The translations under genes were made by a program, and so were the position numbers. A stretch of DNA of 64,000 nucleotides, from contig NTKK01000006.1 of NCBI GenBank assembly GCA_002457675.1, positions 75,742-139,741 on the forward strand, read 5' to 3'. Within the stretch, counting starts at the first letter, position 1, and each line of letters starts with the position of its first letter. The notes under the pieces were generated by a model. The model did not search any database and was not told the origin of the DNA. It worked only from the letters and a program-made list of their open reading frames with translations. This document shows, one piece after another, positions 1,394-58,883 of this stretch. This DNA is from Bacteroidetes bacterium MED-G17. GTDB taxonomy: Bacteria > Bacteroidota > Bacteroidia > NS11-12g > UBA9320.

Positions 1394-2053
1394 ATGAAAT
1401 TCTTTATTGATACAGCCAATCTTTCAGAAATAAATGAAGCAAACGAATTAGGTATTTTGGATGGTGTTACAACCAATCCTTCACTTATGGCAAAGGAAGG
1501 TATTAGTGGAGAAGAAGAAGTTAATGAGCACTACATCAAAATTTGTAATCTTGTAAATGGAGATATAAGTGCTGAAGTTATCTCAACCAATTTCGAAGGT
1601 ATGATAATAGAGGGTCAAAAATTGGCCAAATTACATGAAAATATTGTTGTTAAGGTACCCATGATAAAAGATGGTGTTAAGGCCATAAAGTGGTTTAGCG
1701 ACAAAGGAATAAGAACCAATTGCACCTTGGTGTTTTCACCAGGACAAGCAATTCTTGCAGCAAAAGCAGGCGCAGATTACGTGTCACCATTTGTTGGAAG
1801 AATTGATGACATTACTTGGGATGGTATGGAGCTTATATCTCAAATCTCGGATATATATACCACACAAGGTTACCACACAGAGATTTTAGCAGCTTCGATT
1901 CGAACACCTAAACATATTGTAGAAAGTGCAGAATTGGGTGCAGATGTTATTACCGCACCATTAAAATCAATCCTTGGACTTCTTAACCACCCACTTACAG
2001 ATATTGGTTTGGCTAAATTTTTGGCTGACCATGAAAAAGTAAGTAAATCCTAA
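1394..2053 (+). CDS. tal: Transaldolase, small TalC/MipB-type
   Basis: A 219-residue single-barrel transaldolase of the pentose phosphate pathway, moving a dihydroxyacetone unit between sugar phosphates. Visible active-site features are D6 (FIDTANL), the TTNPS motif with N28, and the Schiff-base lysine K87 in VVKVPM. It has glutamate in the AEVIST segment and phenylalanine in SPFVGRIDD, where E. coli fructose-6-phosphate aldolase has glutamine and tyrosine, so transaldolase activity is favoured over free aldolase activity. It is a useful reference for the aberrant homologue at 57166. The ATG follows the SRP RNA closely. Confidence 0.9.
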   Translation: MKFFIDTANLSEINEANELGILDGVTTNPSLMAKEGISGEEEVNEHYIKICNLVNGDISAEVISTNFEGMIIEGQKLAKLHENIVVKVPMIKDGVKAIKWFSDKGIRTNCTLVFSPGQAILAAKAGADYVSPFVGRIDDITWDGMELISQISDIYTTQGYHTEILAASIRTPKHIVESAELGADVITAPLKSILGLLNHPLTDIGLAKFLADHEKVSKS

Positions 2054-3754: not shown

Positions 3755-4798
3755 ATGAAGATATTGTATGCAATACAAGGCACAGGAAATGGACATTTAA
3801 CGCGTGCTATGGAACTTATTCCTGAAATCAAGGAAAAAGTAAGTCAATTGGATATTGCAATAAGTGGTTCAGAGTCAGAATTAAATTTGCCACATCCGGT
3901 CAAATACAAATTGAATGGGTTGCAGTATTTCTTTGGAAGACGTGGAGGGATAAATGTGATTAAGACTTTGAGAAACAACAACATTTTGAATTTTTTTAAG
4001 GAAATAAGTAATTTTCCAATTACAGATTATGATATGTTAATCAATGACTTTGAGCCTATAACGGCTTGGGCAGCCCAAATGAAAGGTGTTTATTCAGTAG
4101 GTATTAGTAACCAAATATCTGTTTTGGGCCAAGATGTGCCTAGGCCCAATCATATAGACTTGTTGGGAAAATTGGTTTTAAAATATTTTGCTCCAGTAAG
4201 TTATAAGTATGGAATTCATTATAAAAGTTATAATGATAAAATATTTAAGCCAATAATTAGAAAAGAGATAAGGCAGATGGAACCTGAAAATGAAGGATAT
4301 CAGCTTGTTTATTTACCTTCATGGGAAGATGAATTCCTCAAAAATGTACTTACTAAATTCCCATTTACGGATTGGCATATTTTTTCAAAACGCGCGAAAG
4401 AAATCTCTTTTTATAAGAATATTACATTTTATCCGGTAGATGTCAATATGTTTCTTAAAAAAATGGAAAAATGTGAAGGGATTATAACCAATTCAGGCTT
4501 TGGCACTACTTCAGAGGCACTTTATTTAAACAAAAAACTACTTGTTATTCCTATGAAGGGCCAACTAGAGCAGAAGTGTAATGCGTATTGTTTAAAACAA
4601 ATGGGCATTCCTGTAATTGGTGGATTTGGTGCAAAAAGTATGGAAAAAATTCAAGTTTGGCTTAACAGTTCACACTATATAAACCTTTACTACCCTCATA
4701 ACAATAAGTCAATTGTTAATAAAGTTTTTGAAGATTTTTTAGGTTACAAGCAAGCGGTAATGGGTTTAGAAAATAAAGAACTTTTATTTTCAGATTAA
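3755..4798 (+). CDS. Glycosyltransferase family protein, MurG-like GT-B fold
   Basis: A 347-residue protein with the start MKILYAIQGTGNGHLTRA, a GT28-like glycine-rich loop with a GHxTRA motif. The C-terminal half has TNSGFGTTSEAL and a PMKGQLEQKCNA segment, typical of the donor-binding half of GT-B enzymes. Acceptor and donor are unknown. It follows the LpxH-like phosphatase by 1 nt, hinting at an envelope glycolipid role (inference). It converges on atpC with an 18-nt gap. Confidence 0.75.
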   Translation: MKILYAIQGTGNGHLTRAMELIPEIKEKVSQLDIAISGSESELNLPHPVKYKLNGLQYFFGRRGGINVIKTLRNNNILNFFKEISNFPITDYDMLINDFEPITAWAAQMKGVYSVGISNQISVLGQDVPRPNHIDLLGKLVLKYFAPVSYKYGIHYKSYNDKIFKPIIRKEIRQMEPENEGYQLVYLPSWEDEFLKNVLTKFPFTDWHIFSKRAKEISFYKNITFYPVDVNMFLKKMEKCEGIITNSGFGTTSEALYLNKKLLVIPMKGQLEQKCNAYCLKQMGIPVIGGFGAKSMEKIQVWLNSSHYINLYYPHNNKSIVNKVFEDFLGYKQAVMGLENKELLFSD

Positions 4799-4815
4799 TA
4801 AGCAGTGTAAGAAAA

Positions 4816-5046
4816 TTAGGCAAGAACAATCATCTTGTTTTTGAGTATTTCCACAATACCACTTTTAATTTCAAAATTTGTCTTTTCTGTTCCCTGTTTG
4901 ACAACGATGTTGCCTTCATCTAGCGTGGAAATGATTGCCGCATGATTGTTTAAAGCTTCAAAGCTTCCTTTTGTGCCAGGTAGTTTCACAGAATCAACTT
5001 CTCCTTCAAAAAGTACCTTTTCTAATGTAATGATTTCTAGATGCAT
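4816..5046 (-). CDS. atpC: F1F0 ATP synthase epsilon subunit, short form
   Basis: 76 residues matching only the N-terminal beta-sandwich of the epsilon subunit (LEIITLEKVLFEGEVDSV, then GSFEALNNHAAIIS). The helical C-terminal domain that inhibits the enzyme in E. coli is absent. Short epsilon subunits are common in Bacteroidota. It starts 5 nt after the atpD stop and is surely co-transcribed with it; the other F1F0 genes are not here. Confidence 0.93.
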   Translation of the reverse strand: MHLEIITLEKVLFEGEVDSVKLPGTKGSFEALNNHAAIISTLDEGNIVVKQGTEKTNFEIKSGIVEILKNKMIVLA

Positions 5047-55748: not shown

Positions 55749-55757
55749 ACTCATAAC

Positions 55758-56198
55758 TTAACCGTTGCGGTCTTTTTCGTCTTTATCGCCTTCTCCTCTG
55801 TCTTTTTCGTCTTTATCGCCTTCTCTTCTGTCTTTTTCGTCTTTATCGCCTTCTCCTCTGTCTTTTTCGCCTTTATCACCTTCTCCTCTGTCTTTTTCGT
55901 CTTTATCACCTTCTCCTCTGTCTTTTTCGTCTTTATCGCCTTCTCCTCTGTCTTTTTTGTCTTTATCGCCTTCTCCTCTGTCTTTTTTATCTTTATCGCC
56001 TTCTCCTCTGTCTTTTTTGTCTTTATCGCCTTCTCCTCTGTCTTTTTTGTCTTTATCGCCTTCTCCTCTGTCTTTTTTGTCATCTTGCTTATCTTTTCTA
56101 ATTACTTTTAGCAAGTCATTTTTGTCCAAACCTTCTTTACATCCTGTTGTGAAAGTTAGCGAAGCAAAAAGTGTGATTAATATAATATACGAACGCAT
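55758..56198 (-). CDS. Lipoprotein made largely of a charged decapeptide repeat
   Basis: 146 residues. A lipoprotein signal (ILITLFASLTFTTGCKEG, cysteine at about 20) is followed by a short linker and then about ten tandem copies of a ten-residue unit (KKDRGEGDKD, later copies EKDRGEGDKD). The repeat is strongly hydrophilic, with alternating acidic and basic residues, and should be unstructured or an extended zwitterionic stalk outside the membrane. Only this frame has a signal peptide; overlapping frames are by-products of the repeat. Function unknown. Confidence 0.75.
   Translation of the reverse strand: MRSYIILITLFASLTFTTGCKEGLDKNDLLKVIRKDKQDDKKDRGEGDKDKKDRGEGDKDKKDRGEGDKDKKDRGEGDKDKKDRGEGDKDEKDRGEGDKDEKDRGEGDKGEKDRGEGDKDEKDRREGDKDEKDRGEGDKDEKDRNG
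55771..56070. repeat. Ten perfect-length copies of a 30-bp tandem repeat
   Basis: Ten consecutive 30-bp units plus a partial eleventh, differing by only zero to three bases each. Being a multiple of three, copy loss or gain changes protein length without a frameshift. The units lack stops in all three plus frames and in two of three minus frames. Confidence 0.95.
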
Positions 56199-56335
56199 AG
56201 TATTCTCAAAAGTAATATAAAAAATATTAAATATTCTACTGGAGGTATATTATCATGAATCAAAATCAAAAATTTTGATCTAATTATTTGTACTTTATTT
56301 TTTTTGGCGCATACTTAAGACATAACTTCGCAGCA

Positions 56336-57163
56336 ATGAAGAGGACCTTTGATGTCGGTACCATAAGAATCCACCAAGACGAGCTATTTTTAATATCAGG
56401 TCCTTGTGTAATAGAAGAGAGGGATACCATGTTTAAAACAGCAGAAAAACTGAAACATGTTCAAGACGCGCTCAACATTCCAATCATTTATAAATCTTCT
56501 TTCATGAAAGATAACCGCAGCGCAGTCGATTATTACACGGGTCCTGGAATAGATGAGGGATTAAAAATTTTAGAAGAAGTAAAAGTTCAGTTTGGTTTTC
56601 CTGTTTTAAGCGATATACATTTTCCCTCTCAAGTAATGGACGTAGCAGAAGTATTGGACATCATACAAATACCAGCCTATTTGTGTATGCAAACTACTTT
56701 GGTTACGGAAGCAGCAAAAACAGGCTTGCCAATTAATATTAAACATGGTCAGTTTCTTGCGCCAGAAAACATGGTCAAGCCAATAAAGAAGATTGAATCT
56801 ACTGGGAATGAAAAAATTATATTGACAGAAAGAGGCTATACATTTGGTTACAATGATTTGGTTGTGGACCCTAGAAGCTTCTATCATTTAAATAAAACAG
56901 ACTACCCAGTTGTCTTTGATATAACCCATTCAATTAGGAAATATGGTATTCCAAGTGCAGACCCAAAAGGGGGCAATAAACAATATTTAGATGTTCTCGG
57001 ACGAGCAGGTACCGCAGCTGGTGTTGATGGATTGTTTATAGAAACACATCCTAGTCCAGAAAGGGCATTATGTGATGCAGCTAGCCAAATGTGTGTAAAT
57101 GATTTGGAAGAATATTTAAAACCATTGATTGAAATTCATAATATTGAAAAGAAATACAGATAA
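56336..57163 (+). CDS. kdsA: KDO-8-phosphate synthase-like enzyme, metal-dependent type, divergent
   Basis: 275 residues from ATG 56336; upstream in-frame codons are not conserved. The DAHP/KDO8P-synthase barrel has LISGPCVIEE with C24, which with H198 (DITHSI), E236 (FIETHP) and D247 (ALCDAAS) marks the metal-dependent class. KDNRSAVDYYTGPG fits the KANRSS arabinose-5-P loop, so KDO8P synthase is the nearest family. However, the usual RQTD is MQTT (M118, T121) and KKGQF is KHGQF (H137). It condenses PEP with a phosphosugar; the exact sugar is uncertain. It leads a three-gene operon. Confidence 0.82.
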   Translation: MKRTFDVGTIRIHQDELFLISGPCVIEERDTMFKTAEKLKHVQDALNIPIIYKSSFMKDNRSAVDYYTGPGIDEGLKILEEVKVQFGFPVLSDIHFPSQVMDVAEVLDIIQIPAYLCMQTTLVTEAAKTGLPINIKHGQFLAPENMVKPIKKIESTGNEKIILTERGYTFGYNDLVVDPRSFYHLNKTDYPVVFDITHSIRKYGIPSADPKGGNKQYLDVLGRAGTAAGVDGLFIETHPSPERALCDAASQMCVNDLEEYLKPLIEIHNIEKKYR

Positions 57164-57165
57164 CT

Positions 57166-58176
57166 ATGGAATTTTATCTTGATTCAGCCAATCTAAACGA
57201 AATTAAAGAAGCTTCGGAGCTCGGTTTCATAACGGGTTTGACAACAACACCAACTTTTATGCACCGAGATGGCATAAAGGATATTGATGGCACTATCTTA
57301 CAACTTTCAAAGCTAATGCCTGTGATTCAAGTGGAAGCTCTCGGCAATAATGCAGATGAAATTGAAAAAGAAGCAGACCGATTGGTAGCATTGGGTTTAG
57401 ATCCAAAGAAAACAGTATTCAAAATACCAATCTCTTTGGAAGGCGCAAAAGCATGTAAAAGGCTTGTAAGTAAAGGATATTTGGTGAATTTACATTTAGT
57501 CTACACCCTCCAACAAGCTTATGTGGCCTTGTCTGCTGGAGCATCTTACGTTTGCCCTTTAGCTGGACGATTACAAGATCAAGGACATGATGCGCTTTCC
57601 CTATTTGAACAGTGTGTAGATGCGGTAGATAGATATGGATACGATTCAAAAATTATGTTCTCATCTGTGAGGCATCCAGAACATATAAGAAATGCATTAA
57701 ATATAGGAGTGCATACTTGTACAATGCCATGGAAAGTAATCAAAATGCTCCCAAATAATAACTTCACAACTTTGGGTACCAATCAGTTTGTAGAACACAC
57801 AAGACTAATGACTGTGACTGTTGGACAAGCCATGCGAAAAGCAGATGCTACGATACTTCAAGACAGGCTAGTAAAAGATGCATTGATTGAAATGACCAAG
57901 TCAAAACTTGGAGCTATAACGGTAGTTGGTGAAAATGAAGATATTCAGTGTGTTTTTACAGATGGAGACTTACGCCGCATGTTGGAAAACGAAGGTGAGA
58001 AGGTCTTAAACAAACAACTCTTAGAAATGCCTTCTAAGCTTAGCGTAAGCATTGAGGCAGATGCATTACTCTATGACGCATCTGAATTAATTAAAAGAAA
58101 AAAAGTAGACAATATTGTGGTGACACAAAATGGAAAACCAATAGGAATGTTAGATGTTCAGGATTTAATTGCCTAA
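57166..58176 (+). CDS. Transaldolase-like barrel fused to KdsD-type tandem CBS domains
   Basis: 336 residues. Residues 1-205 form a transaldolase/F6P-aldolase barrel with D6 (FYLDSANL) and a Schiff-base lysine K86 (TVFKIPIS). The normal TTNPS is TTTPT (N28 to T), and the Tyr/Phe of the YVNRID/FVGRID segment is leucine (CPLAGRLQD). Residues about 212-336 are two CBS domains closely like those of arabinose-5-phosphate isomerase KdsD, including KLGAITVV and FTDGDLRRML. It lies 2 nt after kdsA and overlaps the phosphatase gene as TAATG. It may supply or sense the phosphosugar used by the kdsA product; activity is unproven. Confidence 0.85.
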   Translation: MEFYLDSANLNEIKEASELGFITGLTTTPTFMHRDGIKDIDGTILQLSKLMPVIQVEALGNNADEIEKEADRLVALGLDPKKTVFKIPISLEGAKACKRLVSKGYLVNLHLVYTLQQAYVALSAGASYVCPLAGRLQDQGHDALSLFEQCVDAVDRYGYDSKIMFSSVRHPEHIRNALNIGVHTCTMPWKVIKMLPNNNFTTLGTNQFVEHTRLMTVTVGQAMRKADATILQDRLVKDALIEMTKSKLGAITVVGENEDIQCVFTDGDLRRMLENEGEKVLNKQLLEMPSKLSVSIEADALLYDASELIKRKKVDNIVVTQNGKPIGMLDVQDLIA

Positions 58177-58883
58177 TGGAGTTAAAACAAATAGTTTCTT
58201 TGTATGAGGAAATTGGCGCGGAATTTGTGAGTTCAGCTACACAAATCCAACATAAATTTCAAAAGATCAAATGCTTAATTTTTGATTGGGATGGAGTTTT
58301 TCATGGAGGGGAAAAATATGATAACTTTAAAGGAAGTTTTTCTGAACCCGACAGTATGGGCATTAATCTTCTTAGATTTTCAAAATATCTCCTGAATCGT
58401 CAGATGCCAAAAATGGCCATCATAACAGGATTGCACAATAATACAGCGAAACAATTCGCAGACAGAGAACGATTTGACTTTCAATACCATAATTTTAAAG
58501 AAAAAAATGGAGCTTTTCAACACATATTAAAAGAAAACGAACTGCAAGCAGACGAATGCGCTTATTTCTTTGATGACTTGTTGGATATCCGTGTGGCAGA
58601 GCAAGTTGGTTTGCGGATTTTGATTAGTCATAACGCCAATCCATATTTCTCCAACTGGTGCAAAGCGCACAATTATGCTGACTATGTCAGCGCTCATTCA
58701 GGTGGTTTTTTAGCGATTAGAGAGGCATGTGAGATGTTAATGGCAATTGGAGGAAATATTGATAAAGTTTTTTTGGCTAGGAAGAATTTTGATGCGTCTT
58801 ACAAAAATTATCTTGATCAAAAAAGGAATAGCAAGCTTGTACTGTTGGAACCTGTCGATATTGGTCTTCAAGAATTTCTATAA
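58176..58883 (+). CDS. KdsC-like HAD phosphatase, divergent
   Basis: 235 residues. The HAD motifs are D37-W-D39-G-V (nucleophile and acid/base), AIITG (motif II), a lysine in FKEKNGAF (motif III) and YFFDDLLDIRV (motif IV, D133-D134). DYVSAHSGGFLAIREACEML aligns with the KdsC tail, but the usual arginine of GRGAVRE is lost and AIITGR reads AIITGL. It is longer than KdsC at both ends. It probably removes the phosphate from the condensation product of the upstream enzyme; a changed substrate is inferred. Confidence 0.82.
   Translation: MELKQIVSLYEEIGAEFVSSATQIQHKFQKIKCLIFDWDGVFHGGEKYDNFKGSFSEPDSMGINLLRFSKYLLNRQMPKMAIITGLHNNTAKQFADRERFDFQYHNFKEKNGAFQHILKENELQADECAYFFDDLLDIRVAEQVGLRILISHNANPYFSNWCKAHNYADYVSAHSGGFLAIREACEMLMAIGGNIDKVFLARKNFDASYKNYLDQKRNSKLVLLEPVDIGLQEFL

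Follow-up and report, generated by a model that had tools for sequence, protein, structure and literature searches.

This study concerns a gene on the forward strand of a 64,000-nucleotide stretch of DNA from Bacteroidetes bacterium MED-G17 (contig NTKK01000006.1, positions 75,742 to 139,741), which we call the window. The gene, at 57166..58176 (+) with an ATG start, encodes a 336-aa protein in which a transaldolase-type barrel is joined to a KdsD-type CBS pair, referred to here as the TAL-CBS fusion. It lies in the order kdsA-fusion-kdsC: it starts 2 bases past the stop codon of kdsA (56336..57163, +), which encodes a 3-deoxy-D-manno-octulosonate 8-phosphate (KDO8P) synthase above its NCBIfam cut-off, and its own stop codon overlaps, as TAATG, the start of a gene for a KdsC-like HAD phosphatase (58176..58883, +). 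From sequence and genome comparison we consider it very likely that the fusion is a non-orthologous replacement of KdsD in the synthesis of the endotoxin sugar 3-deoxy-D-manno-octulosonate (Kdo), and that its class I transaldolase-fold barrel, with an altered donor pocket, would form D-arabinose-5-phosphate (A5P) for condensation with phosphoenolpyruvate by the neighbouring variant KdsA.

The first-pass annotation had read the protein as an aldolase fold followed by the CBS pair of KdsD, and profile and structure comparisons bear this out. The barrel, residues 1-210 (57166..57795, +), matches Pfam TAL_FSA (PF00923) over residues 3-202 with 116 bits against a curated cut-off of 27, and the AlphaFold model of the fusion (mean pLDDT 89.9) aligns with 1vpx in VIA-align over 214 residues with Z 29.9, root-mean-square deviation 1.7 and 33% identity, giving it the (beta/alpha)8 fold of the transaldolase/fructose-6-phosphate aldolase (FSA) family. 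The CBS pair, residues 217-336 (57814..58173, +; Pfam CBS, 44.5 bits), has KpsF/KdsD as its top model matches, and its PDB matches 4o9k (the best, 59.7 bits), 3fna and 3k2v are each named arabinose 5-phosphate isomerase; in a small tree it falls together with the CBS pairs of KdsD, apart from those of GuaB and MgtE, at a support of 0.97. None of the NCBIfam models scored the fusion above its own cut-off. TIGR00875, the equivalog for fructose-6-phosphate (F6P) aldolase/transaldolase, gave 153.8 bits, below its cut-off of 245.95, while TIGR00393 (KdsD/KpsF) gave 64 bits against 203.7 and matched at model positions 155-267 only, which are the CBS part; the SIS isomerase domain that membership of TIGR00393 requires is absent from the fusion. 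The fusion is thus a member of the transaldolase/FSA superfamily that is neither a transaldolase nor an FSA by the equivalog test, and it appears to be the counterpart of KdsD by function, not by sequence. It resembles KdsD, KpsF and GutQ, which combine SIS with a CBS pair, in its inferred product, its place next to kdsA and its homologous C-terminal CBS pair, but because it has a transaldolase-type barrel as catalytic domain instead of SIS, its chemistry must differ from that of KdsD. We found no paper in the open literature that assigns a transaldolase-CBS protein to Kdo synthesis.

The small TalC-type transaldolases (3r8r, 1vpx, 3s0c) provide the closest barrel by sequence and structure, but the fusion has replaced their donor-pocket and acid/base residues, and the genome also encodes an ordinary one elsewhere. 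This ordinary copy, at 1394..2053 (+) of the window, scores 279.9 bits with TIGR00875, above the cut-off, and keeps the residues of ordinary transaldolases, N28, T110, S130 and F132. With FSA (FsaA/FsaB) the fusion shares the fold (Z about 27), the Schiff-base lysine and Asp6, and it differs by the replacements N28T, Q59E, T109H, A129C and Y131L, by its CBS tail and by its Kdo operon. Our residue comparison agrees with the first-pass annotation that D6 and K86, the predicted Schiff-base lysine (57421..57423, +), are kept, that Thr replaces Asn at position 28 (57247..57249, +), that the catalytic Tyr/Phe position, 132, is Leu, and that the transaldolase at 1394 is normal. It adds that T110 has become His (57493..57495, +) and S130 Cys, so that C130-P131-L132 (57553..57561, +) stands in place of the transaldolase S-P-F; also new are the place of the gene between kdsA and the KdsC-like phosphatase gene and the lack of KdsD in the genome. 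Work on FSA (PMC13259622) singled out N28 and A129 for their part in stabilising the dihydroxyacetone donor and places the catalytic water with Q59, T109 and Y131. In the fusion, N28 and the residue at 129/130 are changed, and E57, H110 and Leu132 are found where the water would be bound. Among 109 distinct fusions (one further row, incompletely parsed, was left out), D6, T26, T27, T28, E57, K86, N108, H110, Y113, L132, R135, S166, S167 and R169 are identical in all, and C130 is found in 105; position 110 is Thr in 30/30 transaldolases. The Schiff-base lysine and Asp6 characteristic of PF00923 are therefore universal among these fusions, whereas the Asn28 and catalytic Phe/Tyr characteristic of TIGR00875 are invariably replaced. 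Variation of K86 among homologues, which the first-pass annotation had named as grounds for abandoning its proposal, does not occur in these 109 proteins.

The fusion and KdsD are also connected by their distribution. We surveyed 295 Bacteroidia genomes, calling KdsD at E<=1e-30 and a strong KdsA at E<1e-80, the latter a threshold of our own. A full-length or near-full-length fusion or a divergent relative was found in 57 genomes and KdsD in 167. Among the strong-KdsA genomes (about 210), the fusion occurs alone in 47, KdsD alone in 157 and the two together in 2, and about 3 have neither, two of these last being 60-80% complete; Fisher's test for this mutual exclusion gives p about 1e-39, with shared ancestry ignored. 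Seven families (f1, f6, f12, f16, f37, f40 and f68) hold both fusion-only and KdsD-only members, indicating that the switch between the two has recurred. In a second set of 50 genomes fetched via the fusion, some of which are also in the first, KdsD is present in 3 and absent from 47; among its members are the isolates Thermonema rossianum, Flexithrix dorotheae, Thermoflexibacter ruber and Raineya orbicola. A species-level scan yielded at least 575 stretches matching the fusion, the best 80 of which are nearly all from Bacteroidota. The relatives searched in the host's own family and order all lack the fusion, and nearly all have a full KdsD-size protein. The host genome itself (1.67 Mb, 99% complete) carries kdsA, a kdsC-like gene, kdsB and waaA, each in single copy, and a TIGR00393 search of it found no KdsD, its matches being the CBS pair of the fusion, a guaB-size open reading frame and two SIS proteins. 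A short, CBS-less KdsD was also considered and rejected, as the two weak SIS matches look like GmhA and MurQ by Pfam. Comparison of the genomes shows that this gene takes the place of KdsD in Kdo-making genomes and that its aldolase active site is strictly constrained in them.

The gene neighbourhoods are similar elsewhere. A kdsC-like gene lies directly downstream of the fusion in 61 of the 76 loci with enough flank, out of 80 loci in total, and kdsA is found within the locus in 49 of the 80. Some fusion operons add kdsB, a DegT-type aminotransferase and an iron alcohol dehydrogenase, as would be expected for 8-amino-Kdo. Two metagenome-assembled genomes (MAGs) of Desulfobacterota have the order waaA-kdsB-kdsA-fusion-kdsC; in the Desulfobacterota MAG loci L146, L149 and L150, the fusion and Kdo genes occur together without KdsD, which points to horizontal transfer beyond Bacteroidota unless it comes from a binning error. 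A natural swap is seen in G320, a finished single-contig genome of 7.0 Mb (loci L200 and L201). In its operon of fusion-type kdsA, kdsC-like gene and kdsB, the fusion gene is missing from its place after kdsA and before kdsC, and a full KdsD is encoded elsewhere; G274, from the family of G320, instead carries the fusion and lacks KdsD. The two enzymes are thus interchangeable at a constant KdsA type, which points to A5P as their shared product. Taken together, operon position, near-perfect complementarity with KdsD, active-site constraint and this swap lend strong support to the earlier suggestion that the fusion makes A5P for KdsA. Other features were seen at these loci. In L161 and L167 (4516-4884 in each) a small gene between kdsA and the fusion encodes a protein of four-helix bundle type, matched by TIGR02436 in L167. 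In L145, L152, L159 and L160 (near 4563-4982) this place is taken by genes of another, unrelated family whose proteins have about 138 aa, the L160 copy having no NCBIfam match. In the window, the KdsC-like phosphatase has an N-terminal extension and scores far under the KdsC family cut-off; its catalytic residues D37, D39, K110, D133, D134 and D137 are intact, the HAD residues are invariant, and it is the sole KdsC candidate in the genome. A promoter and terminator scan performed no better than on shuffled sequences. At 55751-56220 a 30-bp unit is repeated in tandem in 10.4 copies with a 96% match. The repeat is open in three overlapping frames, and the product of one minus-strand frame resembles a lipoprotein in which a charged motif, KDRGEGDKDE, recurs.

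A possible chemistry for the barrel is suggested by stereochemistry, since A5P matches F6P in configuration once C1 is taken away. In a transaldolase pocket, A5P bound as a C1 imine would have its C2-C3 bond at the position where the C3-C4 bond of F6P is cleaved. K86 may form its imine at the C1 carbon of an aldose, and N28 and S130, which normally line the pocket for the hydroxymethyl group at C1 of dihydroxyacetone, may have changed because A5P lacks that carbon, the pocket becoming retuned to an aldehyde donor with H110 and E57 as a new acid/base pair. The KdsD-like origin of the CBS pair suggests that through it a nucleotide of the pathway, for instance CMP-Kdo, probably exerts feedback on the enzyme. 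A class I aldolase that joins an aldehyde donor to glyceraldehyde-3-phosphate (GAP) to give an aldose-5-phosphate is known in 2-deoxyribose-5-phosphate aldolase (DERA), which serves as an analogy only, being of a different family with no sequence match seen. If the fusion makes A5P, we give about an even chance to the reaction that we favour, glycolaldehyde plus GAP to A5P, and a smaller though considerable one to C2 epimerisation of ribose-5-phosphate or isomerisation of ribulose-5-phosphate. To our knowledge, A5P formation from glycolaldehyde and GAP is otherwise confined to in vitro work and designed pathways. The title of PDB entry 3upb describes a transaldolase in covalent complex with arabinose-5-phosphate, and PMC7407102 cites work on A5P as a covalent inhibitor. 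The aldol reaction, already put forward in the first-pass annotation, is consistent with the stereochemistry, with the residue changes and with the reported formation of A5P by FsaA and FsaB from glycolaldehyde as donor and GAP as acceptor in vitro (PMC6298115), but the same data also fit epimerisation or isomerisation of a pentose phosphate.

The latter possibility deserves the most attention among the alternatives, although we regard it as rather unlikely overall. It would lead to the same product in the same active site, either through a C1 imine of ribose-5-phosphate at K86 with proton exchange at C2 by H110 and E57 or through isomerisation of ribulose-5-phosphate, and would dispense with free glycolaldehyde. 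One-for-one swapping with KdsD, a user of ribulose-5-phosphate, argues for it, as does H110, which has newly appeared where the catalytic water is bound, is invariant and could act as acid/base; however, a ketose imine at C2 gives no simple route to an aldose, and we know of no epimerase or isomerase of the transaldolase family.

A different proposal is that the operon serves another 3-deoxy sugar, with the fusion supplying a different aldose phosphate to the variant KdsA. The fusion-linked KdsA proteins do form a separate type, with 64-69% identity to the window KdsA as against 41-47% for the other type, and the presence of this variant tracks the fusion (window 56336-57163; L170-L182; kdsA in L090-L169). 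Numbered from the K at 56339, D58, Y114, M117 and an altered loop after THS are found in 53/53 fusion-linked copies, as in the window, and H136 in 52/53; a second set of 13 fusion-type KdsA has the same variant residues, with R at 136 in one. At 58, 114, 117 and 136 canonical KDO8P synthases have A, F, R and K (17 other-type KdsA and the aligned PDB relatives), so that the canonical motifs KANR(S/T), LCRQ and KKGQF read KDNRS, LCMQ and KHGQF in the fusion-linked enzymes. These changes, together with the sub-threshold KdsC score, favour a different sugar. Nevertheless we find this improbable, for G320 pairs the same variant KdsA and KdsC with KdsD and no fusion, kdsB and waaA occur in the shared operons, and the K-x-N-R-S motif is kept.

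Less probable still is that the barrel is a dead sugar-phosphate sensor with the CBS pair as regulator, A5P coming from another enzyme such as GlmS or GmhA. The first-pass annotation held an inactive sensor to be its main alternative, and the loss of the catalytic Tyr/Phe speaks for it. So do six divergent relatives of family f4 (L072-L077), from genomes without a strong KdsA, in which K86 is R in five and S in one, R135 and R169 are replaced in all six and D6 in four, while the CBS pair is kept; regulatory descendants can therefore exist. The neighbours checked around them are unrelated to Kdo, the L072 copy adjoining M61-type peptidase and phosphodiesterase genes, and these relatives are likely pseudoenzymes with a new role. 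The aldolase site is thus kept where KdsA is present and lost where it is absent, and in 109/109 Kdo-linked fusions there is no variation in the Lys, Asp, Glu and Asn or in the Args that bind phosphate. Of the sequence arguments, this difference in constraint speaks most strongly against a role as sensor only. We accordingly reject loss of catalysis for the Kdo-linked fusions and accept it for f4. GlmS is near universal and would not explain the mutual exclusion of fusion and KdsD. The A5P-forming side activity of eukaryotic GFAT (PMC11301363) offers a precedent for GlmS as source, and GmhA was rejected as the missing isomerase, being found in nearly all genomes irrespective of KdsD or KdsA and not found in the fusion genome G153. 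Least probable is transaldolation, in which a dihydroxyacetone unit would be taken off octulose-8-phosphate (from glucose-6-phosphate via transketolase) to leave A5P: the carbon skeleton works out by our reckoning, and transketolase and transaldolase handle octulose-8-phosphate (PMC5854111), but the reaction requires a dihydroxyacetone donor pocket, in which N28 and S130 are replaced.

Several points weigh against A5P formation by the fusion. Its support consists of sequence and genome comparison. With the catalytic Tyr/Phe and N28 gone, ordinary FSA or transaldolase activity cannot be assumed, and the aldol version is weakened by the want of an obvious and sufficient supply of glycolaldehyde. 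The genomes are related, so that the Fisher value overstates independence, and five fusion genomes also hold KdsD (G286, G309 and those of L129, L131 and L169). Finally, the neighbouring KdsA is altered at positions conserved in canonical enzymes, making a somewhat different substrate conceivable.

KdsD is regarded as the enzyme by which Kdo synthesis is entered, and also as a target for antibacterials. Should the fusion form A5P in its place, hundreds of species in Bacteroidota, and a few in Desulfobacterota, would use an enzyme unrelated to KdsD and nearest to transaldolase by sequence models, which would explain the missing KdsD of these bacteria and add a natural A5P-forming enzyme of use in glycolaldehyde-assimilation pathways. 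More tentatively, and with somewhat less than even confidence, we speculate that in many Bacteroidota Kdo synthesis may start with the formation of a carbon-carbon bond, in which a CBS-regulated class I aldolase would join glycolaldehyde to GAP to give A5P for a co-evolved KdsA variant.
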